Below, piece by piece: positions 190 to 19,571 of a stretch of 39,850 nt of DNA. The stretch is from Burkholderiales bacterium (GTDB lineage: Bacteria; Pseudomonadota; Gammaproteobacteria; Burkholderiales; Casimicrobiaceae): the NCBI GenBank assembly GCA_016790165.1, contig JAEUPL010000036.1, positions 1 to 39,850 of the forward strand, read 5' to 3'. The notes under the pieces are model-generated. The model saw only the letters and a program-made list of their open reading frames with translations. It ran no database searches and was not told the origin of the DNA. Each line of letters opens with the position of its first letter. Within the stretch, counting starts at the first letter, position 1. The position numbers and the translations under genes are program-made.

Positions 190-218
190 AAAAAAAACGG
201 GCGCGAATATCGCGCCCG
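190..218 (-). terminator. Rho-independent terminator of the TonB receptor gene
   Basis: Read on the minus strand, a perfect 9-bp stem (198-206 with 210-218, cgggcgcga arms, 3-base loop) is followed by an uninterrupted run of eight T (190-197). It starts 22 bases after the receptor stop codon. It should end the whole minus-strand amino-sugar transcript. Confidence 0.9.
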
Positions 219-239
219 CTGCCATTGAACCTGCGTGAT

Positions 240-3101
240 CTATTTGAAGCTGTACGTCGCAAGCAGCGTGTAGGCGCGCCCACGAGGATCGGCGACGCGC
301 GGCTCCCACGAACTGCCCGCGCCGGTATTGCCGTCATAAGCGGCACTGAACGGTGGATCCGTGTTGAGGATATTCTTGACACCCAGGGTCACGCCAAGAT
401 TCTTGATGCCGGAGTACGTCAGGCTGACATTGAAACGCGAGACGTCGCCGGTCTTGGCGCTCCAGTTCGGCGGGACGATCGTTCCATTGGCAACACCAGG
501 AAGCACGGCGTCATAGTAGCCGGTCGAAAAGATCTGGGTGAGTGTCCCTGTCCACGGCCCCTTTTCGAACGAAATCGACGCGACGTGCTTCCAGCGCAGC
601 GGGATATCACCGCTGCGGCTGAAACGCCCCACCTCATTACTCCCAAACGGTGCACTCGTGATCACGCGCGACTTGCGTTCGATCATGTAGGTGCCATCGA
701 TCTTGGCACTGAGTTTGCCACCCCACACGCTCGTCGATGCTCGCGCACCCAGTTCCAACCCCTTGGTGATCGTCTCGCCGGCATTCACCCACCGCCGATC
801 AATGCCAACCAGCGCGCCGCTGGCGTCGCGCAGGAAGCGATCAGGAAACAGGTTTGCATTGCTCAACAACGTCGTCAAGGGAATGTCGTAGATCGTGCCA
901 CTACGACGTACTTCCCAGTAGTCCGCGTTGGCGCTCAACCACGGCGTGGGATCAATGACCAGGCCCACCGAGTGCTGTTTCGCGGTTTCCGGGCCGAGGT
1001 CGGGCTTGCCGCCGGTGTAGATCGAGGGCGTGATGGACTCGCAGCCCGGGACCGTGGCACTCACGACGCCGGAGGGACATTTGGCGGGGTCAGCCAAGTC
1101 CTTGCCCGAATAAGGCGATTGCGTGACACCATAGAACAGTTGCCCAAAGGTCGGGACCCGGAAGCCGGTGTTGTAGGAACCGCGCACCAACACCTGCTGC
1201 ACGGGTACCCAACGGAACGTGACCTTCGGGTTCGTCGTGCCGCCAAAGCCGCTGTAGTCGTCGTAGCGTACGGCGCCAGTGACTTCGAGGGACTTCGTGA
1301 TCGGGACCAGCACTTCTGCGTATGCGGCCTTGATGTCGCGCTTGACACCGTTGAGATCATTCACGGAATCGAAGGGCGCGTTAAAAATGTTGCGCTGGGT
1401 CGCGATGTCGGTCGCGTTGCCAGTGAATTGGTATTTCTCCTGGCGAACGTCGACCCCGACGGCGGCCATCACGTCACCGGCGGGCAGTTTGAAGATCGGG
1501 CCGGACGCAGAAATGTCGGCCTGTGTCGTGGTGTACTTGCCGCCGTAGAGCGTCGTGCCCGTTGCGGATGCGGCGGCGAGCGCAGCCATCGCCTCAGGCG
1601 TTTGCGACTGCCCCGCCGGCAGGAACGGATTGAGCAGACCGCTGCGCAGTAGCGGCACGAACTTGTCGTTGAAGTAGTAGCCGCCACCCAACAGCGACTT
1701 GGTATCGCTCGTCGCCTGCGACACGCCAAACTTGTAGTCCCAGGTGCCGAAGACGCCCTCGCCGCCGACCAGAAAGCGACGCGTTTCCGCCGTCGTCTCA
1801 ATCTCGCGCGGACCACAGGGCATGCAGCGCCAACGGTAGGCGATGCCCTGTCCGCGGTTCTCCTCGATCGTCGGAAAGACCGAGACCAGAGCGTTAAATA
1901 CCGTGTTGTAGGCCGACCCCGTGCTCGGATAGAGGAGGTTGAAGAACGGGTTGGTGGATGCGGTGCTGCTCGAAATCTGGTTCGGCGAGAAGGTCTTCTT
2001 CGTCGTGACGTCGGCGCCGATGAATTCGCCGAACAGTGTCAGCGAGTCGTTGAGCTTGAAGCTCGCGCGGGCCACCGCGCTCAGATTCTCGACGGGCTGT
2101 TGAATTGCGGCGGCACGTCCGGTGTCCCATGCGCAGCCGTACTTGGCGGAGGGAGTGGCCCAGAGTCTTTCATCGTACGCGGCCATCCCATCAATCGAAT
2201 TGCAACCGGCTTGCCCCGGCAAGTCCAGGACGTTAATGCCGTTCATGGCAACGGTCTCGCCCGGCCGGGTGGGCCCGGTGCCGTTGACCAGCGTGCCAGC
2301 CGCGTTGCGTGATGACAGCGCTGTACGCACCGTGCTCAAGGTGAAAGCAGTCGCGTACGGTGTGCCACGCGTGTCAACAGACAACCCACGGTCTGGCTGG
2401 AACGTATTGACAAAGTCACGTTGATCCCCGCGCAGGGCTTCGTTCTTCGTGTAGGACAGCGACGCCATCACGTTGTATCGGTCTCTCGCCAGGTTACCCC
2501 ACCCGCCGACGGCGGAGAAGCGCGTGATGTTTCCGCCGCCAGCTTCGGTGACGTCGGTGAACGCACTGAGCGTGAGGCCAGTGACATCCTTGCGCAGAAT
2601 GAAGTTCATCACACCGCCGATAGCATCAGTGCCGTACAGAGCGGAGGCACCGTCTTTCAGTACTTCAACGCGCTCGATCGCGGCGATCGGAATCGAGTTC
2701 AGGTCGACCACACCACCGTTGAGTCCGTGCGCCGCGATGCGGCGACCGTTGACGAGGATCAGGGTGGCGTTCGAACCCTGGCCGCGCAGGTTGGCCGCAG
2801 ATGCGCCGTTGTTACCCCGACTCACGCCGGCCGCGACGTCGCCGTTGGAGGCCAGATTGTCGAGGCCGTTTCCGTTCACGCTCAACTCCATCACGAGTTG
2901 TTCGGCGCTGACGATACCGGCGCGTTCGATGTCCTGACGCGTCACGATTTGAACCGGCAGGGCGCCTTCGTTCTGCACGCGCTTGATGCCCGAGCCGGTA
3001 ATCTCAACGCGCTCAACCTTTTGCGGCTGCGCGTCTTGCGCAAACGCTGGGCTTGCAATCAAAACCAGTGACATGCACTGAGCGAGTTTGTTTAGTTTCA
3101 C
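240..3101 (-). CDS. TonB-dependent outer-membrane receptor
   Basis: A 953-residue outer-membrane receptor that should import a specific ligand using TonB energy. A Sec signal peptide (about residues 1-21, ending SPAFA) is followed by a TonB-box-like stretch (VERVEITGSGIKR), a plug domain (about 45-170, with LRGQGSNATLILVNGRR and the ALYGTDAIGGVMNFIL motif) and a long beta-barrel ending YSFK. The start is GTG, with a purine-rich AAGGGG about 6 bases upstream. It is the last gene of the minus-strand string of amino-sugar and peptidoglycan genes, 246 bp downstream of the serine hydrolase, and has its own promoter candidate. From context I infer a muropeptide or GlcNAc-oligomer ligand. Sequence alone gives only the family; siderophore or other substrates remain possible. 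Confidence 0.93.
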   Translation of the reverse strand: MKLNKLAQCMSLVLIASPAFAQDAQPQKVERVEITGSGIKRVQNEGALPVQIVTRQDIERAGIVSAEQLVMELSVNGNGLDNLASNGDVAAGVSRGNNGASAANLRGQGSNATLILVNGRRIAAHGLNGGVVDLNSIPIAAIERVEVLKDGASALYGTDAIGGVMNFILRKDVTGLTLSAFTDVTEAGGGNITRFSAVGGWGNLARDRYNVMASLSYTKNEALRGDQRDFVNTFQPDRGLSVDTRGTPYATAFTLSTVRTALSSRNAAGTLVNGTGPTRPGETVAMNGINVLDLPGQAGCNSIDGMAAYDERLWATPSAKYGCAWDTGRAAAIQQPVENLSAVARASFKLNDSLTLFGEFIGADVTTKKTFSPNQISSSTASTNPFFNLLYPSTGSAYNTVFNALVSVFPTIEENRGQGIAYRWRCMPCGPREIETTAETRRFLVGGEGVFGTWDYKFGVSQATSDTKSLLGGGYYFNDKFVPLLRSGLLNPFLPAGQSQTPEAMAALAAASATGTTLYGGKYTTTQADISASGPIFKLPAGDVMAAVGVDVRQEKYQFTGNATDIATQRNIFNAPFDSVNDLNGVKRDIKAAYAEVLVPITKSLEVTGAVRYDDYSGFGGTTNPKVTFRWVPVQQVLVRGSYNTGFRVPTFGQLFYGVTQSPYSGKDLADPAKCPSGVVSATVPGCESITPSIYTGGKPDLGPETAKQHSVGLVIDPTPWLSANADYWEVRRSGTIYDIPLTTLLSNANLFPDRFLRDASGALVGIDRRWVNAGETITKGLELGARASTSVWGGKLSAKIDGTYMIERKSRVITSAPFGSNEVGRFSRSGDIPLRWKHVASISFEKGPWTGTLTQIFSTGYYDAVLPGVANGTIVPPNWSAKTGDVSRFNVSLTYSGIKNLGVTLGVKNILNTDPPFSAAYDGNTGAGSSWEPRVADPRGRAYTLLATYSFK

Positions 3102-3193
3102 GGTAACCCCTTTTCGTCTCGAAAGCTGAATCAGCGGCGCACCCAGCCTGCCTGGTCGCGCTACAGGAATATTGTTACAACGCTGCGTAGTCC

Positions 3194-3224
3194 ATTATCA
3201 CCCGATTGCCGCAATCCGTGTCAA
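3194..3224 (-). promoter_or_regulatory. Sigma70-type promoter for the TonB receptor gene
   Basis: On the minus strand, TTGACA (3219-3224) is followed after 18 bases by TGATAA (3195-3200), or after 19 bases by GATAAT (3194-3199). This is the best -35/-10 match in the 246-bp gap between the serine hydrolase and the receptor. The leader to the GTG start would be about 85 bases. It suggests the receptor can be expressed separately from the upstream catabolic genes. Confidence 0.6.
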
Positions 3225-3347
3225 CGCGAGCCTGCCGAATCGAACTATCGGGGCGGGGGATTTGCAAACTTGCGACGCCAAGCCTCGGGGTGGACCCGTC
3301 GGATCCGGCGTCGGGCGCACCGGCCATCCGCTAAGCGGCCGTCGGCA

Positions 3348-4727
3348 CTATCGGGCATCCGTCTCCGATCTCGCAACGCGCCAAAGCGCGTCAAGAATCA
3401 GCTCCTCGTAGCGGTAGAAACCCGAATAGCGCCCAGTGTCCGTCGCCGGATCGAATCCGACCCCGCCCGAGAGAAAAACGACGCCGCAGCGCTCATGACG
3501 ATTCATCAGCACCGCAGAGGTCAATCCGTACGCGTCTCCGAGGTGCCCAACCGCTGTGAGCCCACCGCCAGCGCGCAACCAGTCCCCTCGCCCGTGTGCG
3601 AACGTGTCAGTGAAGATCTGCGCGCCCAGTCCCCAGGCCTGGCTGCGCGACACAGTCTCCGTACCCTTCGCGGTGGCGGATTCCCCGCGCTGCCACTGCG
3701 GACGAAACATTTCGTCGATCCAGTTGCCGTTGAAGACCAACCGACCGCGGTGCCTGCCGTGGTTCAGCACGACCTGAACCAGCGTTGCCAGGCCACGCGC
3801 CCCGATGCGCAGGCCGCCCTGCGGGCTCAGCAGTGACCCATTGCGCCCCGGCACATACGCCGCAGAGGTACGCGGCACAGGCGGGGACGCCTCGTAGTCG
3901 TCCACCTGCGGCCGCCACGGCCCGCGCGGTTCCCACTGCTCACGTCCCTGGCGTTCAACACGCTTGCGATAAAGGGTCGCGACGTGCTGCAACGCCGACG
4001 TCGGCAAGTGCGCGGGGTCAAACGTCGCCTGGACACCCAGCGGCGAGAACACCGCGTCCTGCATGAACCGATCGAAACGCTGCCCGGTCACCGTCTCAAT
4101 GAGGGTCGCGATCACGCCGGAGGCGAGGTTGCAGTACGCAAACGCCTGGCCGGGAGCCGCATCGCGCGACCATACGCTTCGTTTGCCCGCGAACGCCCCG
4201 CGAGCAAGCAGTACGTCGCGGATGTCGTCTGCCTCGGGAAAGCTATACCCGGCATCGTCGCGCAGCGACGACGTGTGGCACAACAGCATTCGCAGCGTGA
4301 TGGCTTGCGACGGAAAATTCGGGTTGCGAACCGCGACGCCGAGATAGCTCGAAATATCGCGGTCCAGATCAAGCCTGGCTTGCGCCAGCAGGGTCAGCAC
4401 GCCGAGCGCGGTCACCCACTTGGAAATCGATGCAACTCGATAGAGCGTATCGACGGTGGCAGGCCGATGCGCCACGCCAGTGGCGTCGATCCAGCGCTGT
4501 CCGTAGTAGCCCTCAAAGACAATTTCGCCGTTGCGCAGAACAATCGTCGCGAGGCTGGCCAGCTCGCGATCGGGTCGCCGCAGAATGGCGGCGAGTTCGG
4601 CGGCCGTTGCCGCGTTGCTGTCTGCAGGGATGGGCGTCATGTCCCAGAAATTGCTGCGACATCCGGCCAGCCCCAGCGACGCGGCGAGCATCGTGCGGCG
4701 GCGCCAGTCGACGCTGCCCCTCACCAT
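3348..4727 (-). CDS. Class C beta-lactamase-fold serine hydrolase, lipoprotein
   Basis: 459 residues with the three motifs of class C beta-lactamase/penicillin-binding-like hydrolases: SxxK at S100-K103 (SISK), YxN at Y198-N200 (YCN) and HxG at H395-G397 (HLG). The N-terminus has a short hydrophobic segment ending in a lipobox, LAGC (C23), preceded by RRR, so an exported lipoprotein is likely. The start overlaps the stop of the upstream AmiD-like gene by 7 bp (ATGGTGA), showing translational coupling. Family members include esterases, D-aminopeptidases and Bacillus AmiE/YbbE, a muropeptide amidase found in murQ clusters. Its place beside AmiD and MurQ makes a muropeptide-cleaving role the best inference; a beta-lactamase is less likely. 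The exact bond cleaved is unknown. Confidence 0.85.
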   Translation of the reverse strand: MVRGSVDWRRRTMLAASLGLAGCRSNFWDMTPIPADSNAATAAELAAILRRPDRELASLATIVLRNGEIVFEGYYGQRWIDATGVAHRPATVDTLYRVASISKWVTALGVLTLLAQARLDLDRDISSYLGVAVRNPNFPSQAITLRMLLCHTSSLRDDAGYSFPEADDIRDVLLARGAFAGKRSVWSRDAAPGQAFAYCNLASGVIATLIETVTGQRFDRFMQDAVFSPLGVQATFDPAHLPTSALQHVATLYRKRVERQGREQWEPRGPWRPQVDDYEASPPVPRTSAAYVPGRNGSLLSPQGGLRIGARGLATLVQVVLNHGRHRGRLVFNGNWIDEMFRPQWQRGESATAKGTETVSRSQAWGLGAQIFTDTFAHGRGDWLRAGGGLTAVGHLGDAYGLTSAVLMNRHERCGVVFLSGGVGFDPATDTGRYSGFYRYEELILDALWRVARSETDAR

Positions 4728-5584
4728 CGCTGCCGAACGCGAAATCCATCCGCCCGATTGACAACGTCCAGGAGCGCTGCGGTCTCTGCGTCGGGATGGC
4801 CCTCAAAGTTGGCCGGGCGGTACTTCAACTGGAAGGACGTCAAGGCGTCTCGTGTCACGCGGTCATGCGCGCCCGTGGGTGGTACGTTGAAACCGTGCGC
4901 CATCAGTTTTTGCTGAAACCAGAGCACATCAGGCAACGCCTGCTGATAAGCCACCAGGCGTTCCCGCGTCATCCCCTCGTCCGGCCAGGGAATCAGGCCG
5001 GCGTCTGCGAACTTTTTCCAGGGAAATTTGGGGCCGGGGTCGTTCTTGCGACCCGGTGCGATGTCGCTGTGGCCGAGCACGCGGTCGGGCCGGATCGCGT
5101 GATCCTTCATGATCTGACGGCACAAGGCGATCACGAGATCTATCTGCGCCGGGTCGAAATCGTCAAAGACGACGGAACCGTCGGCCTGCTTGCGCGGTCC
5201 CCGGTTGACGATCTCGATCCCGATCGAACTGGCATTCAGCAGTGCAGCGCCCTTCCACCAACTCACCCCCGCGTGATACGCACGGCGACTCTCATCGACC
5301 AGGCGATAGATCTTCGGCGGCGTGTCGCCCTGGGAGTCGCTAACGAGATAGTGGCTGCTGACGGGTCCCTGGGTGAGAATCTTCAGCGACCGAGGAAAGT
5401 CCTCGGCCGTGAAATGCAGTATCAGATGTTGCGCACGACTGTCCTGGCTCACCGAAGTAAACGTGGTGTCGATCACCAATCGGGGCGCGTCCGGCGCGGG
5501 CAGCCCAGCGCAGCCTGCAAGCACCGCGCTGCAACAAGCGAACAAGGCAGCGCGGATGCGTCCGCAATCGTCACGAAATGCCAT
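4721..5584 (-). CDS. amiD: N-acetylmuramoyl-L-alanine amidase, AmiD-like lipoprotein
   Basis: 287 residues. A lipobox LAGC (C25) follows a hydrophobic signal, so it should be an outer-membrane or periplasmic lipoprotein. An Amidase_2 domain (about 35-190) carries the zinc ligands H57 (LILHF), H172 (GHSDIAPGRK) and D182 (NDPG), with the catalytic Glu at E124 (GIEIVN). A peptidoglycan-binding domain follows (about 210-275). This is the E. coli AmiD layout. It cleaves the MurNAc to L-Ala bond, freeing glycans from stem peptides. The start chosen has AAGGAG 7 bases upstream; a longer frame up to 5659 lacks this and overlaps the kinase gene by far more. It overlaps the kinase 3' end by 14 bp and the serine hydrolase start by 7 bp. 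Confidence 0.93.
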   Translation of the reverse strand: MAFRDDCGRIRAALFACCSAVLAGCAGLPAPDAPRLVIDTTFTSVSQDSRAQHLILHFTAEDFPRSLKILTQGPVSSHYLVSDSQGDTPPKIYRLVDESRRAYHAGVSWWKGAALLNASSIGIEIVNRGPRKQADGSVVFDDFDPAQIDLVIALCRQIMKDHAIRPDRVLGHSDIAPGRKNDPGPKFPWKKFADAGLIPWPDEGMTRERLVAYQQALPDVLWFQQKLMAHGFNVPPTGAHDRVTRDALTSFQLKYRPANFEGHPDAETAALLDVVNRADGFRVRQRW

Positions 5585-6521
5585 GCTGTCGCTCCTTGTC
5601 CGTCGTGTTCGTGCGCAATCGTTCAACCGCGCATTTTGCAGCAGCCACATGCGCCTCAAGCGTGCGCCAGTTCACTGGAACATCAGGGGCGATCCGGGCG
5701 CGCGCCGCGTGCTGAATCAGCTCGTGCATCAGTGCGGCCCGTCCCGCGATGGTCACAGGTCGTTGACCGAAGCGTCCGACCATCGCATTCGCCAGCCGCG
5801 CCAGCTCGCCGCCGGCATCGCGGAGAATGTCTCGCGCGAGGCCGTCGACCTCAGCGCATTCGGCGACGATCAACGCGAGTCGACCCACCTCGCCGCGATC
5901 CCGCTCCATCAAAAACCGAGCGGAAAAAATCGACGAATCGCCGCCAACGGCATTGAACAGCCGCTGCGCCATCGGTGAGTGCTGCCATGCGCCCGGCGAC
6001 TCATCCTCGCGCCGCCATACCCGACGCAACGCCTCACGCGCCATCCAGTAGCCGCCACCGGCATCGTCGAGCAGCACGCCCCGCCCGCCTGCTCGTTGCA
6101 ACGCGCCTGTCTCGTCGATGAATGCGGCGATCGAACCGGTTCCGGCGTACACGAGATACCCCTCACCCGGCGTAAACGCTGCACGACAAGCGATCTCCAC
6201 GTCACTCGCAATCGACACCGCAGCGTCGGGCAATCTGAATGCCCGCGCAAATATCGATTGCAATGCCGCGCTGCCGGCCCCGATACCCGTCACACCGGCG
6301 TAAACCGAGTCGGCCCCCGCTGGTACGGTCGACGCCAGCTGCTCAACACATTGCCTGACCCGGTCAAACCCGGTTGGCGCCAGAAGCTCGGCCCCGCTGA
6401 AGCCCGGCCCATCGCCGTGCGCAATGTCGCTCCCTGCCGAGTCCATCAGCGCCCAGCGCGATGACGTTCCACCCACATCGACACCGAGCGCGAACTGGTG
6501 CTTCATCGGCTGGGCGATCAT
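5571..6521 (-). CDS. BadF/BadG/BcrA/BcrD-type amino-sugar kinase (GlcNAc or MurNAc kinase)
   Basis: 316 residues of the ASKHA ATPase fold. The N-terminal phosphate-binding loop reads GVDVGGTSSRW, the second phosphate motif region has GTGSIAAFI, and GVLLDDAGGGYWMAREAL is typical of the BadF group that includes human and bacterial GlcNAc kinases and clostridial MurK, which phosphorylates both GlcNAc and MurNAc. Start: ATG at 6521 forms an ATGA overlap with the upstream glycosidase stop; an ATG at 6506 is the alternative. MurQ and NagA in the same operon need MurNAc-6-P and GlcNAc-6-P, and no PTS is present, so this enzyme is the likely source of both. Dual specificity is inference. Confidence 0.88.
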   Translation of the reverse strand: MIAQPMKHQFALGVDVGGTSSRWALMDSAGSDIAHGDGPGFSGAELLAPTGFDRVRQCVEQLASTVPAGADSVYAGVTGIGAGSAALQSIFARAFRLPDAAVSIASDVEIACRAAFTPGEGYLVYAGTGSIAAFIDETGALQRAGGRGVLLDDAGGGYWMAREALRRVWRREDESPGAWQHSPMAQRLFNAVGGDSSIFSARFLMERDRGEVGRLALIVAECAEVDGLARDILRDAGGELARLANAMVGRFGQRPVTIAGRAALMHELIQHAARARIAPDVPVNWRTLEAHVAAAKCAVERLRTNTTDKERQHGIS

Positions 6522-8221
6522 CGCGTCACCACGGAACGCGGACCCTCGCGGCCATGCCGATCCAGCCAACTCGCAGCCACCCGACGCAGCGGCTGGCCCC
6601 TGCCGTCGAACGCGGGCACCGTCCGTTCGATTGTGGTGCGCGGCAACGCCGTCAACAACGGCTCTGGCGCAGTCCACGGTACCCGCTGCACGGGTTCGCT
6701 GGCATCGCCGTAGCCGAGCCAGAGCGCACCCGATTTGATGCTTGCGCGTTCGCGCTCGTCGGAAACATTTATCGCGACTGCGATACGACAGGATGCGCCG
6801 GGCGCCGAATCACCGCATTGCAAAGCCAGCAGGGGCGCCTGCGGCGGCAAGACGCGCGGTGGCACCCGCCATGGCGTTGCCGGCACCCAGGCGCGAGTGG
6901 CGTAAGACCCACGCGCGAGCACGTCGCTCACGCCACGGCGGTTTTCATTGAGCGCGGCGAGACTGAAATGCAGGTGCCCAGTCGCGCCCACCCGACTGCG
7001 CTGCGTGGCAATTTGCTGAGTGATTTCGTCCGGCGACCACGATTTCTCGCTGGCATCGATTCGACTGGTGAACAAGCCCGGCCAGATATGCCGCCCGCGA
7101 ACATTCGATTGGGTCCAGTAGTCCAGCAGAACGGGAAACGCTTGCGCAGTTTGCGCGATGGGCCAGTACAGTTGCGGGGCCAGGTAGTCGAGCCAGCCGT
7201 TGGCGAGCCACCGTTCCACGTCGGCGTAGATGCGGTCGTACTGGCTGAACCCGGAAATGCCCGGCGGACGGCGATCAGGGCGACCCACGCCGAACGGGCT
7301 GATACCCACCTTGAGCCCCGGCTTGATGGCGTGGACTTCCCGGTAAAGCGCGGCGACAAAACGGCTGACGTTTTCGCGGCGCCAATCCTCGCGGCTCATA
7401 CGACCGCCGCTACCCTGATATCGCAACCAGGACGGCTCGTCCGGGAAGGGTTCGTCGCGCGGCGCTGCGCTCTCCGCTGGCGTGCCGGCCGCGCTCGGTG
7501 CCACCGGTGCATTCGGGACGGGCACAGCGGAAACAGGCGCGGGGGTCGCGGGCACCGACGCCGCCGGTACCGGATACGGATAAAAGTAGTCATCGACGTG
7601 CACCCCGTCGACGTCATATCGGCGCACGACGTCGGCAATCACATTCAGTGAATGCCGGGCAGCAGCGTCGTCGCCTGGGTCAATCCACAGCATGTCGCCA
7701 TAGCGCTTTACGGCGTCAGGCATGATGCGGCTGACGTGCGTGGCTGCCGGCGGGGACTTCGCACTCGAATGCCGCGCCCGAAACGGATTGAACCAGGCGT
7801 GCAGCTCGATCCCGCGCGCATGCGCAGCGGCAATCCATTCCGCCAGCGGGTCGTACCCCGGCGCGGGAGCACGCCCTTGTTCGCCACTGAGGTACTCCGA
7901 CCACGGCTCAAGCGCCGACGGGTAAATTGCGTCGGCGGCCGGTCGCACCTGCAGGATGATCGCGTTGAGTTTGAGCCGCTCAACGGTATCGATTGCGCGC
8001 TGCATCTCGGCGCGTAGAGCAGCCACCGGCAACCCGCGCTGGCTCGGCCAGTCAATATTTGCCACCGTGGCGATCCAGACACCACGGAACTCGCGTGGCA
8101 GCGGCGGCGGTTCCGCACTATCGCGACCGCCATGCACGCCCCGGGACGCGCAGCCGACCAGCCCGAGCAATACGCTACAGCCCAGAACCAATGCGAACAG
8201 ACGGTGCAACCCGCGCGTCAT
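6518..8221 (-). CDS. GHL10-family (DUF187) glycosyl hydrolase-like lipoprotein, DigH/YddW-like
   Basis: 567 residues. A signal ending in a lipobox (LVGC, about C24) gives a lipoprotein. The GHL10 domain starts at EFRGVWIATVANIDWPS and contains the family blocks NAIILQVRPAADA, HAWFNPFRA, VDGVHVDDYFYP, LKVGISPFG and YLAPQLYWP. E. coli DigH (YddW), of this family, cuts peptidoglycan glycans stripped of peptides, which fits the amidases encoded just downstream. A Pro/Ala/Val-rich low-complexity stretch (about residues 219-254, bases 7460-7567) sits right after the VDDYFYP block, inside the barrel. The start at 8221 makes an ATGA overlap with the nagX-like gene and gives a clean signal peptide; a start at 8248 would add nine residues. 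Substrate is inferred from family and context. Confidence 0.9.
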   Translation of the reverse strand: MTRGLHRLFALVLGCSVLLGLVGCASRGVHGGRDSAEPPPLPREFRGVWIATVANIDWPSQRGLPVAALRAEMQRAIDTVERLKLNAIILQVRPAADAIYPSALEPWSEYLSGEQGRAPAPGYDPLAEWIAAAHARGIELHAWFNPFRARHSSAKSPPAATHVSRIMPDAVKRYGDMLWIDPGDDAAARHSLNVIADVVRRYDVDGVHVDDYFYPYPVPAASVPATPAPVSAVPVPNAPVAPSAAGTPAESAAPRDEPFPDEPSWLRYQGSGGRMSREDWRRENVSRFVAALYREVHAIKPGLKVGISPFGVGRPDRRPPGISGFSQYDRIYADVERWLANGWLDYLAPQLYWPIAQTAQAFPVLLDYWTQSNVRGRHIWPGLFTSRIDASEKSWSPDEITQQIATQRSRVGATGHLHFSLAALNENRRGVSDVLARGSYATRAWVPATPWRVPPRVLPPQAPLLALQCGDSAPGASCRIAVAINVSDERERASIKSGALWLGYGDASEPVQRVPWTAPEPLLTALPRTTIERTVPAFDGRGQPLRRVAASWLDRHGREGPRSVVTR

Positions 8222-9429
8222 AGTTTGATGAAAATCCGCCGGCGCCAAAGTCCATACGCCAGCAGGAACATCAGCGCGTTAAAACAGAGCGCGAAGGTCA
8301 GCGATGCGTTCACCGGCTCGAGCCAGCCCCGGTTAATCGCGCCATACAGCAACGCTTTCAGCGACACCGTCGTGGCTGCGGCGCCCGCCGCCGTGGCCAC
8401 CTCGCCAGTGACGACGGATGTGAACTTGATCGTTGCCAATGCCTTCGCAATCAGACCGGAGACGACGAATACGAATAGCGCGTTCACGCCGTAAATTTCG
8501 AACGGGCGCAGCCATTGCGTGGCTCGCCGGCGGACCCAATCTTGGTCGCAGCCATCGATCAACCAGTAGCTGGCCGCCAGCAGGAGCAGCGCCCATCCCC
8601 CGGTGTACGCCACGTAGGACGGTGTCCACAGCGACTTGTTAGTGGGCATCAGCAACGTGTCGAGGACCACGCCGACATACAGAGAGATCAACCCGGCAAG
8701 CATCATCCACACTGCGGTCACTGCGGGTGCCCGCTGGGTCAACAGCCAACGTCCGGTCAGTGCCCCCATGAGCAGCGTCGCCACCGCAGGTAGCGTACTG
8801 AGCAGACCTTCCGGATCCCAGGTTTTCGACTGCGACCACAGATGCCCACCCAGCAGGCGTCGATCGATAAACGCCCCCACATCACGGCCCGGTTCGAGCG
8901 CCCCAGCGATGACCACGCCATTGACATCGGGCACCGGCACGGTGAGCATCACCAATGCGTAGGCTGCGAGCAAACACAACGCAAGCACCCCCAGACCACG
9001 GCTCCGCCACACCAGCACTGCCGGGGCAGCGATCATTGAGCAGAGTCCGATGCGTTGCAACACACCCGGGAGTCGCCAGGTGGAGACGTCGAACGCGGGG
9101 ATGAAGTTCAGGGCGAGACCAATTGCCACAATCAGCAGCGAGCGGCGCCAGAGTTTCAACAGCAACGTGCGGGGTGAGACCCCTGTCGTCCGCGCGCGAT
9201 CAATTGACAACGCCATCGACACGCCAACGATGAAGAGGAAGAATGGGAAAATCCAGTCGGTGAACGTGCAGCCATTCCACGCGGCATGGCGCAACGGCGG
9301 ATAGATGTGCGACCAGTCGCCGGGATTATTCACGAGCACCATCGCGGCAATGGTGAAACCGCGGAATACGTCAAGCGAGCGCAAACGCGATGCGTTGCGC
9401 GGTTCAGGTAGCGGCTCTGCAACAGACAC
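8218..9429 (-). CDS. nagX: NagX/HGSNAT-like membrane acyltransferase (DUF5009)
   Basis: 403 residues with about ten hydrophobic segments. The N-terminus has the family block RLRSLDVFRGFTIAAMVLVN, then HAAWNGCTFTDWIFPFFLFIVGVSMALS, as in COG4299 proteins related to lysosomal heparan-alpha-glucosaminide N-acetyltransferase, which carries acetyl groups across a membrane to terminal glucosamine. Bacterial relatives (NagX) recur in chitin and GlcNAc regulons but their reaction is not firmly known. The start is GTG, 29 bases after the murQ stop. The 3' end overlaps the glycosidase start by 4 bp. A role in acetylating periplasmic glucosamine residues is inference. Confidence 0.88.
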   Translation of the reverse strand: MSVAEPLPEPRNASRLRSLDVFRGFTIAAMVLVNNPGDWSHIYPPLRHAAWNGCTFTDWIFPFFLFIVGVSMALSIDRARTTGVSPRTLLLKLWRRSLLIVAIGLALNFIPAFDVSTWRLPGVLQRIGLCSMIAAPAVLVWRSRGLGVLALCLLAAYALVMLTVPVPDVNGVVIAGALEPGRDVGAFIDRRLLGGHLWSQSKTWDPEGLLSTLPAVATLLMGALTGRWLLTQRAPAVTAVWMMLAGLISLYVGVVLDTLLMPTNKSLWTPSYVAYTGGWALLLLAASYWLIDGCDQDWVRRRATQWLRPFEIYGVNALFVFVVSGLIAKALATIKFTSVVTGEVATAAGAAATTVSLKALLYGAINRGWLEPVNASLTFALCFNALMFLLAYGLWRRRIFIKL

Positions 9430-9458
9430 GTCGATGGGCCCGATTCAGCGCCGTCAGC

Positions 9459-10361
9459 TCAGCGGGCGAGCGCGGCGCGCACATCACCGTCGTTATCAGC
9501 CAGCCGCTGCTGGGCGGCCAACGCATCGACGTCAAGAACGATCATCACGATGGCCGTCTTCACGCGATAGCGACAGGCTTTCAACGCGGACTCTGCGACG
9601 CTCTCTTCGGCCCCGGTGGCGAGTGCAGTCAGACGGATCGCGCGTGCGAGCAGTTTGGCATTGGTGGGCACCAGATCAACCATCAGGTTGCCGTAGACCT
9701 TGTGCAACCGCACCATCAACGCAGTGGAAAAGGTATTCAGTGCGATCTTCTGCGCCGTGCCCGCCTTGAGCCGGGTGCTGCCGGAAACCATCTCGGGCCC
9801 GGTGTCCAGTGTCACGCCCACGTGCGCCTGCGCGCAGACGGGCGAATCGGCGTTGTTCGCGATACCGATGGTGAGCGCACCGGCCTCGCGCGCCGCCCGC
9901 AACGCACCCAGCACATACGGCGTGGTGCCCGAGGCGGCAATGCCAATGACCACGTCGTTGGCGGTCGGTGCGAGTCGCGAAACGTCTAGCGCGCCCTGCT
10001 CGGCGTTGTCTTCCGCCCCCTCGACCGCGCGATAAACCGCCCCAGCACCGCCCGCCAGCAATGCAAGAGAGCGCTCCGCGGGCCAGGCAAAGGTCGGATA
10101 CAGCTCCACACTATCGAGCAGGCCGAGGCGACCGGATGTGCCGGCGCCGGCGTAGATCAGGCGCCCTCCGGCCTTGATCCGTGGCACGGCGCTCGCCACC
10201 GCGCGTGCGAGATCAGCCCCAGCACGTTGAACTGCCGTCGCCGCACGCGCCTGATCAGCCGCCAGCGCTGCAACGAGTTGCTCGACCGGATAGGTATCGA
10301 GGTCAACGTGGTCGGCGCTGGGCCGCTCGGTGGCGAGAATTTTCCGTTTCATGGCAGACAT
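9459..10361 (-). CDS. murQ: N-acetylmuramic acid 6-phosphate etherase
   Basis: 300 residues, the normal MurQ length, with a SIS fold. The glycine-rich signature GAGTSGRLG begins near residue 72, and the two catalytic glutamates known from E. coli MurQ appear as E86 (LLDSVELYP) and E117 (VEGAEDNAE). It removes D-lactate from MurNAc-6-P to give GlcNAc-6-P in the cytoplasm. Its product is the substrate of NagA, encoded two genes upstream. The ATG at 10361 has a second ATG three codons later; either could be used. Its presence shows that the operon handles peptidoglycan-derived sugar and not only chitin. Confidence 0.97.
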   Translation of the reverse strand: MSAMKRKILATERPSADHVDLDTYPVEQLVAALAADQARAATAVQRAGADLARAVASAVPRIKAGGRLIYAGAGTSGRLGLLDSVELYPTFAWPAERSLALLAGGAGAVYRAVEGAEDNAEQGALDVSRLAPTANDVVIGIAASGTTPYVLGALRAAREAGALTIGIANNADSPVCAQAHVGVTLDTGPEMVSGSTRLKAGTAQKIALNTFSTALMVRLHKVYGNLMVDLVPTNAKLLARAIRLTALATGAEESVAESALKACRYRVKTAIVMIVLDVDALAAQQRLADNDGDVRAALAR

Positions 10362-10377
10362 CGATTCGAAGCCCGTG

Positions 10378-11457
10378 TCATGTGGTTCGCGTGACTTTCG
10401 CCAGGTGCGGGGGGTGATCCGGCTCGAGACCTCGCGACCGCGCCAATGCTTCGACCATCAGATAGAAGCTCTGAATCGCGCTCGCCGCATCAAACATTGC
10501 CGAGCCTTCCGCCGCGCCAGTGGATGTAGCGATGTCGACCCACGTCGCCGCAGGGCATTCAACGTGCAGGCTACCTTGCGGCGCCATGATCAAAATGCGC
10601 GCACCGCGCCGCTGCAAATCGCCCGCCAAACGCAACAACCCCGCCTGCTCCGGCCCACGCACCGCAAGAATTAGCACAGGATAACCCGCTTCGATCAGCG
10701 CCTGGGGCCCGTGTCTCACCTCCGCCCCGGAGAACGCCTCGGCCTGAATGCCACACACCTCCTTGAACTTGAGCGCCATCTCTGCCGCGATGGCCAACCC
10801 GGCGCCGCGCCCGATGACGAACAGGCGATCCGCGGTACGCAACTGATCAACGGCAGTCGACCAATCGGCCAGCACCGCGCGCTGCAACAGTCCGGGCAGC
10901 GCAGGCAACGCGCGGCGCACAGCATCATCGTCGGCCAGCTCTGCGAAGAGGCAGAGACCGGCAACCAACTCCGCGATGAAGCTTTTGGTGGCCGCGACAC
11001 TCTGCTCCGGCCCCGCGCAAAGATCCACAACGTGTTCGGCTGCGGCGGCCAGCGGTGATGCGGTCGCGTTGACAAACGCCGCCGTCAGTGCGCCACGCGC
11101 GCGCAGATGGCTCAGAGCGGCGACCAGGTCCGGGCTCTGTCCCGACTGCGACAGCGCAAGCGCCGCCACCTGCGGCCCGCCGATGGGCGCCTGATGCAGT
11201 GTGACGGCCGAGGGCGGCAGCGACGCCGCCACCCAACCCAGGCGCGATAGCAGCAGATACGCGAGGTGACTCGCCGCGTGGTCTGAGCTGCCGCGCGCGA
11301 CCGTCAGCACCTGCGGGTGTGAAATCCTGCGCAACGCCGCCGCCAGCGACTGAATGGCCGGACCGCTGCGCTCCATCAGCCGCGCGGACACGCCGGGCGA
11401 GTCCCGCGCCTCGATCTGCATCTGCGACGATTGGGGCTCGCCCTGGTGCTCAATCAC
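10378..11457 (-). CDS. nagB-II: SIS-domain glucosamine-6-phosphate deaminase (NagB-II type)
   Basis: 359 residues with two SIS domains like the isomerase half of GlmS but lacking the glutaminase half. Seen motifs: ARGSSDHAA, SQSGQSPDL, AATKSF, then GRG and the ALKFKE...E...HGP block that holds the isomerase/deaminase residues. NagB-II proteins of this type turn GlcN-6-P into fructose-6-P plus ammonia and replace the classical NagB in many proteobacteria. The GTG start at 11457 overlaps the nagA stop by 8 bp; an ATG at 11421 is an alternative. It lies between nagA and murQ, so the three enzymes form a linear pathway. Confidence 0.93.
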   Translation of the reverse strand: MIEHQGEPQSSQMQIEARDSPGVSARLMERSGPAIQSLAAALRRISHPQVLTVARGSSDHAASHLAYLLLSRLGWVAASLPPSAVTLHQAPIGGPQVAALALSQSGQSPDLVAALSHLRARGALTAAFVNATASPLAAAAEHVVDLCAGPEQSVAATKSFIAELVAGLCLFAELADDDAVRRALPALPGLLQRAVLADWSTAVDQLRTADRLFVIGRGAGLAIAAEMALKFKEVCGIQAEAFSGAEVRHGPQALIEAGYPVLILAVRGPEQAGLLRLAGDLQRRGARILIMAPQGSLHVECPAATWVDIATSTGAAEGSAMFDAASAIQSFYLMVEALARSRGLEPDHPPHLAKVTRTT

Positions 11458-12565
11458 ACAACCGCCCTGCGCGCATCACACTGCGCAATGTGAGATCACG
11501 ATCCAGGGTCAGCACATCCGCCACCGCACCGACCGCGAGTCGCCCCCGATCGTGCAAGCCAACATAGTCGGCCGCAACGGTTGCCGTGCGACGCGATGCC
11601 TCGGCGAGATCGAGACCGAGCACATTCACCAGATTGCGAAACGCCTGTTCCATGGTAAGCACGGAACCCGCCAGCGTGCCGTCGGCCAGCCGCACCCCAC
11701 CCATACAGCGGGTAACGAGTTGCCGCCCCAAACGGTATTCGCCATCGGGCATACCGGCAGCCGCCGTGGAGTCTGTCACGCAATAGAGCCCCGCGATGCA
11801 GCGCAACGCGACGCGAATGGCGCCGGGATGCACATGCAGGAGGTCCGGAATGATTTCAGCATGCGCCGCGTGCGCCAACGCCGCACCGGCCACGCCGGGC
11901 GCGCGATGATGCAAGCCGCTCATGGCGTTAAACAAGTGCGTGAATCCGGTCGCCCCAGCGGCCAGCGCCGCGCGCGCGTTCTCATAGGTGGCGTCGGTGT
12001 GCCCGAGTTGCACGCGAATACCGATTGCCGTCAACGCGGGGATCACCTCAGCCTGCCCCGGCACGTCGGGCGCCAGCGTCAGGACGCGAATCGGAACAAT
12101 GGAATGCAGTGCAGCGACTTCGTCGAGTGTCACGGCACGCGTGAAATTGGGTTGCGCTCCGAGCTTGGCTTCGCTGATGAAGGGCCCTTCGAGATGCACG
12201 CCAGCGATATAGGCCTCGGCGCCCTGCTGCTGGGAAACGGCTGCGATGCCGGCGAAGGCACGCTCCAGCTCCGCTCGCGGCGCCGTCATGGTGGTGGCGA
12301 GGAGTGTCGTCGTACCTGTGCGCAAATGTGTTGCCGCCACGGTACGCGCTGCGTCGGCACCGTCCATGATGTCGGCCCCACCGCCGCCGTGCACGTGCAG
12401 ATCGACAAACCCCGGAATCAGCAGCGCCTCTGAGGTGCTGCGCACCTCGGCTTCAGTCACGGCCGCGCCGTGAATGGCTGCAATGCGCCCGCTCGCGGCG
12501 TCCGCATCAAGGCGGCCGCGAATCCAGCCGGTGGGTGTGAGGACATCTCCGTGGAGCGACGTCAT
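11450..12565 (-). CDS. nagA: N-acetylglucosamine-6-phosphate deacetylase
   Basis: 371 residues of the amidohydrolase fold. Metal and catalytic residues are in place: H57/H59 (PGFVDLHVHGGGG), E126 (HLEGPF), H189 (GHTDATY), H210 (THLFNAMSGLHHR) and D265 (YCVTDSTAAAG). It removes acetate from GlcNAc-6-P to give GlcN-6-P for the deaminase encoded next. It is the first gene of the minus-strand string. The ATG at 12565 has no clear Shine-Dalgarno, and a TGATAAAA box lies only about 8 bases upstream, so translation may be leaderless. The spacing to the divergent membrane-protein gene is 100 bp. Confidence 0.96.
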   Translation of the reverse strand: MTSLHGDVLTPTGWIRGRLDADAASGRIAAIHGAAVTEAEVRSTSEALLIPGFVDLHVHGGGGADIMDGADAARTVAATHLRTGTTTLLATTMTAPRAELERAFAGIAAVSQQQGAEAYIAGVHLEGPFISEAKLGAQPNFTRAVTLDEVAALHSIVPIRVLTLAPDVPGQAEVIPALTAIGIRVQLGHTDATYENARAALAAGATGFTHLFNAMSGLHHRAPGVAGAALAHAAHAEIIPDLLHVHPGAIRVALRCIAGLYCVTDSTAAAGMPDGEYRLGRQLVTRCMGGVRLADGTLAGSVLTMEQAFRNLVNVLGLDLAEASRRTATVAADYVGLHDRGRLAVGAVADVLTLDRDLTLRSVMRAGRLCD

Positions 12566-12665: not shown

Positions 12666-13910
12666 ATGACCATGACGCTCACCTACCTCTGGACCGGATT
12701 TTTCATCGTTGGCTTTGTGGCAGCGCTGGTGCAGTGGCTGGTGCTGGGTGATGCCACCGTGTTCAAGCGAATCGCCGACGGCACCTTCTCCGCCGCCAAG
12801 GTCGCCGTGATGGACATTTCGCTACCGCTCGCGGGTGTGATGACGTTTTGGCTGGGCATTCTGGCGGTTGGCGAGAAGGCAGGCGCCATCGCAATCGTGA
12901 GCCGCTGGATCGCTCCGTTCTTTGCCCGGATCTTTCCGTCCGTGCCGCGCGACCATCCCGCCAACGGGCACATGATCATGAATTACTCGGCCAATTTCCT
13001 CGGCCTGGATAACGCCGCCACACCGCTCGGCCTGAAGGCGATGAAGAGCCTGCAGGAATTGAATCCGCAAAAAGACACGGCGAGCGACGCGCAGTTGATG
13101 TTTCTGGTGATTCAGACCGCCGGGCTGACGCTGATTCCGCTGTCCGTCATCGCCCAGCGCGCAGTGCTCGGCGCCGCCAACCCGACCGACATCTTCATTC
13201 CAACGCTGATCGCCACGTACGTCGGCACCGCAGTGGCGATCATCCTCTGCTGCGTGAAGCAGCGCATCAGCCTGCTGGACCGCGTGTTGCTTGGCTGGCT
13301 GGGCGGTATCGCCCTGGCCTTGGCGCTGATGGTATGGCTCATGACCACGCAGCTCGACAAGGCGCAGATTGAAACCGTCTCGCTGATTGCGTCCAACGTC
13401 ATCCTGTTCGGCATCATTGTGGCGTTCCTCGCGTTGGGGCTGAAGCGCAAGATCAATGTCTACGAGGCGTTCATCGAGGGGGCCAAGGACGGGGTGCAGA
13501 CGGCGATCACCATCATCCCCTACCTCGTTGCGATGCTCGTGGCGATCAGTGTGCTGCGCAATTCCGGGCTGCTGGAGATGCTGGTCAAGGGCGCTGCCTG
13601 GATGTTCGCGTCGCTCGGCGTGAATGCAGATTTCGTTGGCGCCCTGCCGACCGCACTCATGAAATCGGTGAGCGGCAGCGGTGCCCGGGCCATGATGATC
13701 GACGCCATCAAAACCTACGGCGTCGACTCCTTCGTGGGACGGCTGGCCAGCATCATGCAAGGCTCGTCGGACACTACCCTCTACATCATCGCGCTCTACT
13801 TCGGCTCGGTCGGCATCGCCAAAGTGCGCTATGGCGTTGCGTACGGCCTGCTCGCCGATCTGGCGGGCGTGCTGGCGGCGATCTGGGTGGCATATCTGTT
13901 CTTCGGTTAA
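12666..13910 (+). CDS. SpmA/SpmB-like fused nucleoside-recognition-domain membrane protein
   Basis: 414 residues, strongly hydrophobic. The N-terminal half resembles SpmA (MNYSANFLGLDNAATPLGLKAMKSL region), and the C-terminal half resembles SpmB (ALPTALMKSVSGSGARAMMIDA, and the IMQGSSDTTLYIIALYFGSVG block). In Bacillus the two separate proteins are needed for spore-core dehydration; in Gram-negatives a fused version with two gate-type nucleoside-recognition domains is common and its substrate is unknown. It diverges from nagA across 100 bp and is followed after 3 bp by the next gene, then by ddl. A cell-envelope transport role is possible but not shown. Confidence 0.88.
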   Translation: MTMTLTYLWTGFFIVGFVAALVQWLVLGDATVFKRIADGTFSAAKVAVMDISLPLAGVMTFWLGILAVGEKAGAIAIVSRWIAPFFARIFPSVPRDHPANGHMIMNYSANFLGLDNAATPLGLKAMKSLQELNPQKDTASDAQLMFLVIQTAGLTLIPLSVIAQRAVLGAANPTDIFIPTLIATYVGTAVAIILCCVKQRISLLDRVLLGWLGGIALALALMVWLMTTQLDKAQIETVSLIASNVILFGIIVAFLALGLKRKINVYEAFIEGAKDGVQTAITIIPYLVAMLVAISVLRNSGLLEMLVKGAAWMFASLGVNADFVGALPTALMKSVSGSGARAMMIDAIKTYGVDSFVGRLASIMQGSSDTTLYIIALYFGSVGIAKVRYGVAYGLLADLAGVLAAIWVAYLFFG

Positions 13911-13913
13911 GAA

Positions 13914-14987
13914 GTGCCGGCACCGAGAAACCATCTGACGCCACAACCGCCGCGAGTGAACGCTCGTGCACTTGGCGCGGCATCACTGGCGCTCGCAGCG
14001 ATGCCGCTGGCAGGCATTGCAACAGTCGACGCCATGACTTTGCATCGCGACGGCACCACACTGATCCTCTCGGGCGAGGTTGTCCGCCGTGATCTCGATG
14101 CGGTGCAAGCGGAGTTCGCCCAACCTCCCGCCATCACGCATGTGGTGCTGCGCAACTCGATGGGCGGGAATAGCTGGACGGGCTATCGGCTGGGCGAACT
14201 GTTCCGCGGGAAGGGCGTGACGACGGTGGTGTCGGGCCATTGCGTCTCGTCCTGCTCGCGGCTGTTTCTGGGCGGACGGCAGCGCTTGTTCTCCGACGAC
14301 TACCCGGCGAGCCTGACCTACGTGGGCTTTCATGGGCACTACGATTTCGGGAAATTGAACATCGCAGCGGTGGAGAAAAACGACCTGCTGCAATGGACGC
14401 TCAAATTTACCGATGGCAAGGCCGACCCGGCGCTGGTGAAGCGCTGGATCGCGATCGAGCGGCGGGCCGGCGACGTGCGCTTCTACCCACCGGCGGCGGC
14501 GTCGCGATTCGGGCAGGCCACGGTGCTGTGTCAGGGCAACGAGTCGGTGCGTCCGCAGCAATGCGAAAAGATTGCCACCCACGCGCTGGCACAGGGCATC
14601 GTCACGGCGCAGACACTGTGGTCCAGCCCGGATGCATCCCACCTGCTTTACGGCGCGCGGCGCGTGCAGTATCCAACCTCCGCGTTCGCCACGCTCGATC
14701 AGGCCGATCGTTTGCCGGTGCGCAACGCGGTGGCGCGGCGTGATTTCGCGCTGTTCAAACAGGCTGCGCTGCCGCGCGCGTTTGCGGTCTCCGCAAACGG
14801 CCTGCACTGGGCCTGGGCGGCGAACGATCCGAATTCGGTGGACGTGGCACTCGCGCGCTGCAGGAGCAACGGCGGTGGCCGCACCACGGGCGCAAAGTGC
14901 GTGCTCTACGCGGTGGATGAGCGTGTGGTCTATGCGGGGCAGACCGGGACGCCGGGGGCGACGCGCCACCTAAAATCCCTGCCATGA
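13914..14987 (+). CDS. Secreted COG3904-like protein of unknown function
   Basis: 357 residues with an N-terminal signal-like segment (about 18-36). The middle part resembles the ClpP/crotonase-like fold of COG3904 proteins: [20 protein letters not shown] (about 78-97) and [15 protein letters not shown] with a close cysteine pair (C110, C114). No Ser-Lys or Ser-His-Asp catalytic set can be named with confidence. The GTG start lies 3 bp after the preceding stop, and the 3' end overlaps ddl by 4 bp (ATGA). It is thus coupled both to the SpmAB-like protein and to a cell-wall ligase. No enzymatic function is claimed. Confidence 0.8.
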
Positions 14988-19559: not shown

Positions 19560-19571
19560 GCGGGCTGACGT

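Follow-up and report, generated by a model that had tools for sequence, protein, structure and literature searches.

A probable locus for peptidoglycan-fragment catabolism without a phosphotransferase system in a bacterium of the Burkholderiales

Introduction

How might a bacterium of the order Burkholderiales feed on the amino sugars of peptidoglycan when the genes for this task lie beside secreted hydrolases and a TonB-dependent receptor, with no gene for a phosphotransferase system (PTS) among them? This question is raised by nine genes on contig JAEUPL010000036.1 of assembly GCA_016790165.1 (family Casimicrobiaceae), a contig that we analyzed over its entire length of 39,850 bases (hereafter the window; it is C40 in our numbering of the 41 contigs of this 3.76 Mb assembly, which is 91.9% complete). 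An earlier note on the same DNA had read these genes as a nine-gene operon-like locus that scavenges peptidoglycan amino sugars. We consider it likely that the window carries a peptidoglycan-fragment catabolic locus with a PTS-free route; the muropeptide-catabolic character of the locus is well supported, and we infer that fragments are taken up from outside the cell. In the mechanism that we propose, the TonB receptor would bring muropeptides or short glycans across the outer membrane, and in the periplasm a GHL10 enzyme would cut the glycan, an AmiD-type amidase would strip the stem peptide, a serine hydrolase would trim the peptides, and NagX would re-acetylate free glucosamine. Glycan pieces would then pass the inner membrane through an AmpG-like permease, NagZ would split disaccharides, a BadF-type kinase (or AnmK in the case of the anhydro form of N-acetylmuramic acid, MurNAc) would phosphorylate the sugars, and MurQ, NagA, and NagB-II would hand them on to glycolysis.

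Organization of the locus

Scans with Pfam and NCBIfam models place all nine gene families where the earlier note had put them, on the minus strand and in the following order, with bit scores compared to model cut-offs (GlcNAc is N-acetylglucosamine).

11450..12565, minus strand: NagA, GlcNAc-6-phosphate deacetylase, first gene of the operon (TIGR00221, 245.7 bits against a cut-off of 225.65, passed)
10378..11457, minus strand: NagB-II-type glucosamine-6-phosphate deaminase, SIS family (best match NF046059, 232.9 bits, below the equivalog cut-off of 430)
9459..10361, minus strand: MurQ, MurNAc-6-phosphate etherase (NF003915, 362.5 against 168 bits, and NF009222, 310.8 against 255 bits, both passed; TIGR00274, 301.4 against 302 bits, narrowly below)
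8218..9429, minus strand: NagX-type transmembrane glucosamine N-acetyltransferase, HGSNAT family (PF07786; best match NF046061, 155.8 bits, below the equivalog cut-off of 480)
6518..8248, minus strand: GHL10 (DigH/Cwp19 family) glycan hydrolase with lipoprotein-like signal LVGC (PF02638, 212 bits against a cut-off of 27.9)
5571..6530, minus strand: BadF-type sugar kinase for MurNAc and/or GlcNAc (PF01869; best match the NCBIfam NagK model, 70.7 bits, below the equivalog cut-off of 370)
4721..5584, minus strand: AmiD/AmpDh2-type N-acetylmuramoyl-L-alanine amidase with lipoprotein-like signal LAGC (PF01510, and PF01471 as C-terminal peptidoglycan-binding domain)
3348..4727, minus strand: serine hydrolase of the beta-lactamase/PBP4B/AmpH class with lipoprotein-like signal LAGC (PF00144)
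240..3101, minus strand: TonB-dependent receptor, neighbor of the operon (PF00593/PF07715)

With the start of the amidase gene taken as the ATG ahead of its signal peptide (5584), the successive junctions from nagA to the serine hydrolase gene measure -8, +16, +29, -31, -13, -14, and -7 bases, and 246 bp separate the serine hydrolase gene from the receptor gene. Five of the eight junctions overlap, in agreement with the mostly overlapping arrangement described before, and two more (+16 and +29) are short. The genes from nagA to the serine hydrolase gene form a predicted tight eight-gene operon, to which the receptor gene is a neighbor; the nine-gene unit proposed earlier has to be corrected in this respect, given the 246 bp gap and the location of the receptor gene on the opposite strand in eight relatives.

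No inner-membrane sugar permease is encoded by the nine genes. The canonical AmpG of this genome is encoded on contig C18 (TIGR00901, 516.3 bits against a cut-off of 350, passed), and an operon-type AmpG-like permease of the major facilitator superfamily, 61% identical to the query and below the same cut-off at 168.5 bits, is encoded on C23, where a subtilase gene precedes it and inspection by eye together with one Pfam scan found no further cell-wall genes (L107). The earlier interpretation is supported in part; the sugar chain is present in the operon, and the inner-membrane permease is encoded on other contigs. An assignment of the AmpG-like permease as MurT-like was dropped, since the MurT of Tannerella forsythia (TfMurT) belongs with NagX (PMC9007349). 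No PTS EIIC protein of the GlcNAc/MurNAc family PF02378 is found in our assembly at its 91.9% completeness (mannose-type and other PTS families were not searched), in support of the PTS-free claim for that family, and the same search was positive in seven of 14 named genomes that served as a control.

Other cell-wall genes of the genome include anmK on C3, two genes for glycoside hydrolase family 3 (GH3) proteins on C30 and C33, one of them of NagZ size (a frame of 334 amino acids), and two for S66 LD-carboxypeptidases. One of these two LD-carboxypeptidase genes, on contig C36, is followed by a gene for an S13 D-Ala-D-Ala carboxypeptidase and one for an M15 D-Ala-D-Ala dipeptidase. Because matches to this trio (53%, 47%, and 62%) directly flank the receptor gene in the complete genome G005 (L171), the window locus probably continued into this island of C36 as its now missing flank.

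Conservation and co-occurrence

Three samples were compared, namely 60 relatives (17 genomes of the genus including our own, 19 from the rest of the family, and 24 from elsewhere in the order), an even sample of 200 genomes across the order, and the best 80 of 468 MurQ loci as ranked by MurQ similarity, 58 of which are longer than 20 kb. Genes in relatives were called from tblastn homology combined with a third-codon-position rule, which replaced longest-open-reading-frame calling because the latter chose antisense frames over AmiD, BadF, and many genes of GC-rich relatives. Among the 200 genomes, MurQ is found in 14, GHL10 in 12, NagX in 10, the receptor in 11, and the SpmAB-type membrane protein encoded divergently from nagA in 47. 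MurQ and GHL10 occur together in 10 genomes from four families and lie within 5 kb of each other in nine of these, G057 being the exception. Fisher tests give p values of 2.8e-12 for MurQ with GHL10 and 3.2e-14 for GHL10 with the receptor, which are too optimistic because the genomes are related. NagX is present in eight of the 14 MurQ genomes, and two genomes (G030 and G184) have it without MurQ. Within the genus, an operon-type permease (at least 59% identity) and MurQ are each found in 13 of the 17 genomes and both in 11. The earlier note had made its reading depend on conserved clustering of murQ, GHL10, nagX, BadF, and receptor genes, and the comparison returned co-occurrence far beyond chance.

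The 80 MurQ loci hold GHL10 in 65 cases, the permease in 60, BadF and AmiD in 48 each, the M15 dipeptidase in 41, the S13 enzyme in 31, a receptor-like gene in 25 (a count that includes distant paralogs), NagX and the serine hydrolase in 22 each, SpmAB in 19, the LD-carboxypeptidase LdcA in 12, and NagA and NagB-II in six each. BadF lies directly before AmiD in all 44 loci with both genes, which would tie the kinase to MurNAc release. GHL10 directly precedes BadF in 35 of 44 loci and NagX directly precedes GHL10 in 19 of 21, the AmpG-like permease gene directly follows murQ in 33 of the 60 loci holding both, and the amidase directly precedes the serine hydrolase in only two of 19. GHL10 comes immediately after MurQ in 15 loci whose record titles give Opitutia, Opitutae, Opitutus, or a similar name. 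The LD-carboxypeptidase, S13, and M15 enzymes and the AmpG-type permease sit with these genes in relatives, and their recurrence argues for peptidoglycan rather than chitin as the substrate.

Sugar unit and peptide unit

Gene order in relatives divides the locus into two predicted units. The sugar unit runs nagA-nagB-murQ-nagX-GHL10-badF, and the peptide unit, which can occur apart from it, comprises the genes for SpmAB, the amidase, the serine hydrolase, the LD-carboxypeptidase, and the receptor. Sugar and peptide genes lie on different contigs in two genomes of the same genus, the sugar genes running nagA-nagB-murQ-permease-nagX-GHL10-badF in G007 and comprising murQ, permease, GHL10, and a nagB-II in G009. 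On a single contig of G057, murQ, nagX-GHL10-badF, and the peptide unit are found at three separate places, and G184 has the peptide unit with no match to murQ or GHL10. In the window and in G005 and G012, the sugar genes stand exactly between SpmAB and the amidase. Two genomes of another family (G103 and G220) have the order murQ-permease-nagX-GHL10-badF-amidase-serine hydrolase, followed by LdcA and the receptor on the other strand, and this window-like arrangement implies that the joined order may be old. At two loci (L055 and L117, from G002 and G007), a family GH84 enzyme, a GntR-UTRA regulator, and a divergent sodium symporter are encoded ahead of nagA, which suggests a regulator together with an alternative importer.

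Enzymes of the operon

MurQ shares 43% identity with its E. coli counterpart, and the nearest named records by MurQ are metagenome-assembled genomes of Burkholderiales, Betaproteobacteria, or Pseudomonadota. The chain from MurNAc-6-phosphate to fructose-6-phosphate through MurQ, NagA, and NagB-II, as previously suggested, is supported at the sequence level. NagX, which had been placed within the uptake route, is better read as a putative acetyltransferase that acts on glucosamine in the periplasm. In the alignment with human HGSNAT, His48 falls on chain residue 297, the catalytic, acetyl-carrying His297 (PMC9007349). The same paper reports fitness data that link NagX to the use of glucosamine, and suggests that the acetylation takes place in the periplasm. 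A role as sugar importer was considered less fitting because this acyl-carrying histidine is retained. For the BadF-type kinase, a profile of 22 relatives matches 8zo3, named as a MurNAc/GlcNAc kinase, with an E value of 5e-17. In the MurK of T. forsythia, Ser133-Pro134-Leu135 and Thr94 allow MurNAc binding and Asn at the Thr94 position hinders it (PMC10465942). When these residues are mapped via human NagK, since MurK is not among the matches, the window kinase has Gly-Gly-Arg at the first three positions and Ser at the Thr94 position.

The three secreted enzymes support the earlier assignment of a secreted amidase and glycosyl hydrolase by their family matches. GHL10 is 33% identical to E. 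coli DigH (E 2e-58), and Cwp19, a lytic transglycosylase, is its only solved-structure relative found. The amidase matches AmpDh2 (E 6e-88) and AmiD (2bh7, E 8e-50) and combines the Amidase_2 domain, C-terminal peptidoglycan-binding domain, and secretion signal of AmiD/AmpDh2 enzymes. The serine hydrolase is 25% identical to YfeW/PBP4B, which is encoded in the murQP operon of E. coli, and its ortholog in G005 shows no lipoprotein signal. All three signals listed above were recognized by eye in the window's own proteins; an automated lipobox count over relatives proved unreliable and was not used.

The receptor and alternative readings

A peptidoglycan fragment is the substrate that we infer for the TonB receptor. 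Matches to this protein (E up to 1e-120) are present in all 10 MurQ+GHL10 genomes among the 200, at 38-75% identity outside the window, versus one of the 190 others (G184). In eight genomes with a serine hydrolase-LdcA-receptor layout (G005, G007, G009, G012, G057, G103, G184, and G220), the receptor gene is on the other strand with the LD-carboxypeptidase gene between, and in another group (L028, L036, L050, and L068) a 57-58% match follows GHL10 on the same strand. As judged from gene order, the receptor does not appear to be a stable operon member, and the same-strand cases leave its membership less clear either way.

The separateness of the receptor gene, with its 246 bp gap and its opposite orientation in eight relatives, fits the most serious alternative, in which the locus mainly recovers the cell's own periplasmic turnover fragments and the receptor serves something else. 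Moreover, AmiD/AmpDh2-type amidases and AmpG are known to act on the cell's own fragments, and AnmK, a GH3 protein of NagZ size, and the canonical AmpG are all present in the genome. We nevertheless regard such recycling as a rather unlikely main function. The distribution of the receptor speaks against it, as does a chain that ends in glycolysis and not in UDP (uridine diphosphate)-MurNAc (AmgK and MurU were not searched for), and the dense set of secreted hydrolases suits a foreign substrate.

It is far less probable that the genes serve the utilization of chitin or free GlcNAc and happen to include murQ. In its favor, described nag clusters include nagA, nagB-II, nagX, and a gene for a BadF kinase of NagK type, and in two relatives a GH84 enzyme and a sodium symporter accompany GntR-nagA-nagB. 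Against it, MurQ, the AmiD-type amidase, the LD-carboxypeptidase, and the M15 and S13 enzymes typify the use of peptidoglycan and recur with the cluster, while NagA and NagB-II are retained in only six MurQ loci each, against 48 for BadF, 48 for AmiD, and 65 for GHL10; a chitin-only reading was rejected on these grounds. A chance neighborhood without joint function, which might be argued from the variable gene content of relatives and the distances between units in G007, G009, and G057, is very improbable given an order conserved across families and a co-occurrence of the core genes far above chance.

Peptidoglycan-fragment catabolism with uptake from outside is the reading that we prefer, and several observations weigh against it. 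Most of these genes would equally be needed by a cell that recycles its own wall. MurQ (E < 1e-50) is found in 13 of the 17 genus genomes (our own included), in none of the 19 others of the family, and in one of the 24 others of the order; within the family, it appears confined to the genus. Among the 14 MurQ genomes of the order sample, six are missing NagX, and four, with MurQ of 42-50% identity, are without GHL10, just as two of the 12 GHL10 genomes (G056 and G145) are without MurQ. The best receptor match in G102 (38%) lies far from murQ. Three of the predicted enzymes (NagB-II, NagX, and the kinase) fall below their equivalog cut-offs and are therefore matched at family level only. Finally, at the position of MurK Thr94, the 22 aligned kinases, 21 of them from relatives, have Asn in 14 cases (all of these in relatives), Ser in six, and Thr and Ala in one each, although the presence of Asn in the MurNAc/GlcNAc kinase 8zo3 as well means that this residue neither proves nor excludes MurNAc as the kinase substrate.

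If the preferred reading is true, a group of betaproteobacteria would feed on bacterial cell walls by a PTS-free route that includes a candidate outer-membrane receptor, and MurQ-GHL10 loci are also found in Opitutia records. The locus makes testable the roles of GHL10/DigH proteins outside division and of SpmA/SpmB-type Gate proteins.

SpmAB and the flanking regions

The genes divergent from nagA, and a further element downstream of the receptor gene, are as follows.

12666..13910, plus strand: SpmA+SpmB-type membrane protein with two Gate domains, divergent from the operon, proposed member of the peptide unit (PF07670, two stretches)
13914..14987, plus strand: secreted-looking protein of 357 residues between SpmAB and Ddl (no Pfam match; a 57% match is in the same place in G009)
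14984..16015, plus strand: D-alanine-D-alanine ligase (Ddl), named from sequence alone
196..220, minus strand: terminator-like hairpin 3' of the receptor gene, 11-pair stem and T run (pattern match only; 18 such sites in 16.2 kb against 12.3 expected)

SpmAB copies of at least 66% identity occur in 10 of the 200 genomes, our own included. All 10 also have the receptor (p 4.9e-16), which is present without such a copy in G102, and in all 10 the SpmAB gene adjoins an amidase, nagA, or peptide-binding-protein gene. In G007, G009, G057, and G184, which lack the sugar genes or carry them at another place, SpmAB keeps its association with the genes for the amidase, the serine hydrolase, the LD-carboxypeptidase, and the receptor. 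Distant copies (44-55% identity) are found in 37 genomes, and in the 20 examined with the same tblastn queries none of the tested peptidoglycan genes lies beside SpmAB. The exceptions are a weak symporter match in one genome and, in three, weak amidase-like matches at a distance of 3-5 kb, with 33-36% identity across 123-143 residues. A family-5-type peptide-binding protein is encoded beside SpmAB in six genomes, as identified by Pfam (L127), BLAST (L129, L131, and L135), or likeness of sequence (L128 and L133); these proteins resemble E. coli DppA, OppA, DdpA, and MppA about equally, mostly at 22-28%. By eye, the binding-protein genes of L127, L128, L131, L133, and L135 have no adjoining ATP-binding cassette (ABC) permease genes, and an OppA-type gene near murQ in L011 does come with such genes.

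These neighborhoods, which represent association and not mechanism, lead us to suggest, tentatively, that SpmAB might carry the peptide half of the fragments, either stem peptides or D-Ala-D-Ala, inward across the inner membrane, acting with the periplasmic peptide-binding protein where one is present. If true, this would assign a transport role to SpmA and SpmB, a family needed for spore maturation that has no known activity. In E. coli, yjiH-yjiG, which encode relatives of the family, sit directly before iadA, the isoaspartyl dipeptidase gene, and the window protein matches YjiG over 45 residues only (E 4e-4). A structure model of SpmAB had a mean predicted local distance difference test score of 52.7, and no fold search was based on it. 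According to PMC3533761, data on what SpmA and SpmB do appear to be lacking, and no paper about yjiG or yjiH function was found by title and abstract.

Ddl has 75-85% matches nearby in G005, G009, G012, and G015 and is not beside SpmAB in G007. Within the stretch scanned, namely the nine genes, SpmAB, and the next open reading frame, which has no Pfam match, no MurR-type regulator is present. At the contig start (1-140), just past the terminator of the receptor gene, lies the apparent tail of a transposase reading frame of insertion-sequence type, so that local rearrangement is possible, and contig C36 begins with a similar CTAG-ending stretch ahead of its LD-carboxypeptidase gene. Elsewhere in the window, Pfam identifies a membrane-fusion protein and AcrB-type efflux pump pair (18423-22883) and a TctC-type solute-binding protein gene (27177-28142), and a gene at 34027-35010 is of similar appearance.

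Comparison with known systems

Caulobacter crescentus resembles the window in having a TonB amino-sugar receptor beside nagA/nagB and differs in having a PTS permease and no MurQ (PMC13046382). The nag and chitin clusters with NagX are not known to contain MurQ, an amidase, or GHL10. In such clusters, NagA, NagX, and NagK work jointly with a sugar permease (PMC9007349), and the NagB-II and BadF-type NagK models derive from Shewanella, as their names indicate. The murQ-murP-yfeW operon of E. coli likewise joins murQ to a beta-lactamase-class serine hydrolase, but has the PTS protein MurP, a divergent MurR, and no kinase, amidase, or GHL10 gene (PMC5061867). The murQ-murR-murP-amiE-nagZ-ybbC genes of B. 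subtilis, which serve muropeptide rescue with the PTS protein MurP and an extracellular NagZ, share with the window the combination of murQ, an amidase, and a glycan-splitting enzyme; unlike the window locus, these six genes include a PTS and none for a receptor, NagA, or NagB (PMC5061867).

In the literature searched, which leaves out most subscription papers, we found no description of the present gene set, as the earlier note had supposed, and no paper on murQ and nagX together. The parts are known, and their combination looks undescribed.

Of the systems described so far, the ampG-murTKQ cluster of T. forsythia comes closest. It is a nine-gene unit (Tanf_08345-08385) that holds ampG, murT, murK, and murQ together with genes for a xanthan lyase, two glycosyltransferases, LytB, and YbbC (PMC5388701, PMC7670621). 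TfMurT is distantly related to NagX (PMC9007349). The window locus would work in a similar way, and both loci present a single unit, predicted in the window, for the use of muropeptides or MurNAc that contains a kinase, MurQ, and an HGSNAT-related membrane protein, with no PTS named; the likeness of the last protein to TfMurT is drawn through the NagX family PF07786 and the same paper, and not from a direct comparison of sequences. The kinase is the MurNAc kinase MurK, next to murQ, in T. forsythia and a BadF-family protein, putatively for MurNAc and/or GlcNAc, in the window operon, and the AmpG permease is encoded within the T. forsythia cluster, whereas the operon-type AmpG-like permease of our genome lies outside the operon, on C23. 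GHL10, an AmiD-type amidase, NagA, NagB, and a TonB receptor, which are absent from the T. forsythia gene list as given, are all present in the window locus, and for the outer-membrane receptor step, unmentioned in the searched T. forsythia papers, the window offers a candidate.

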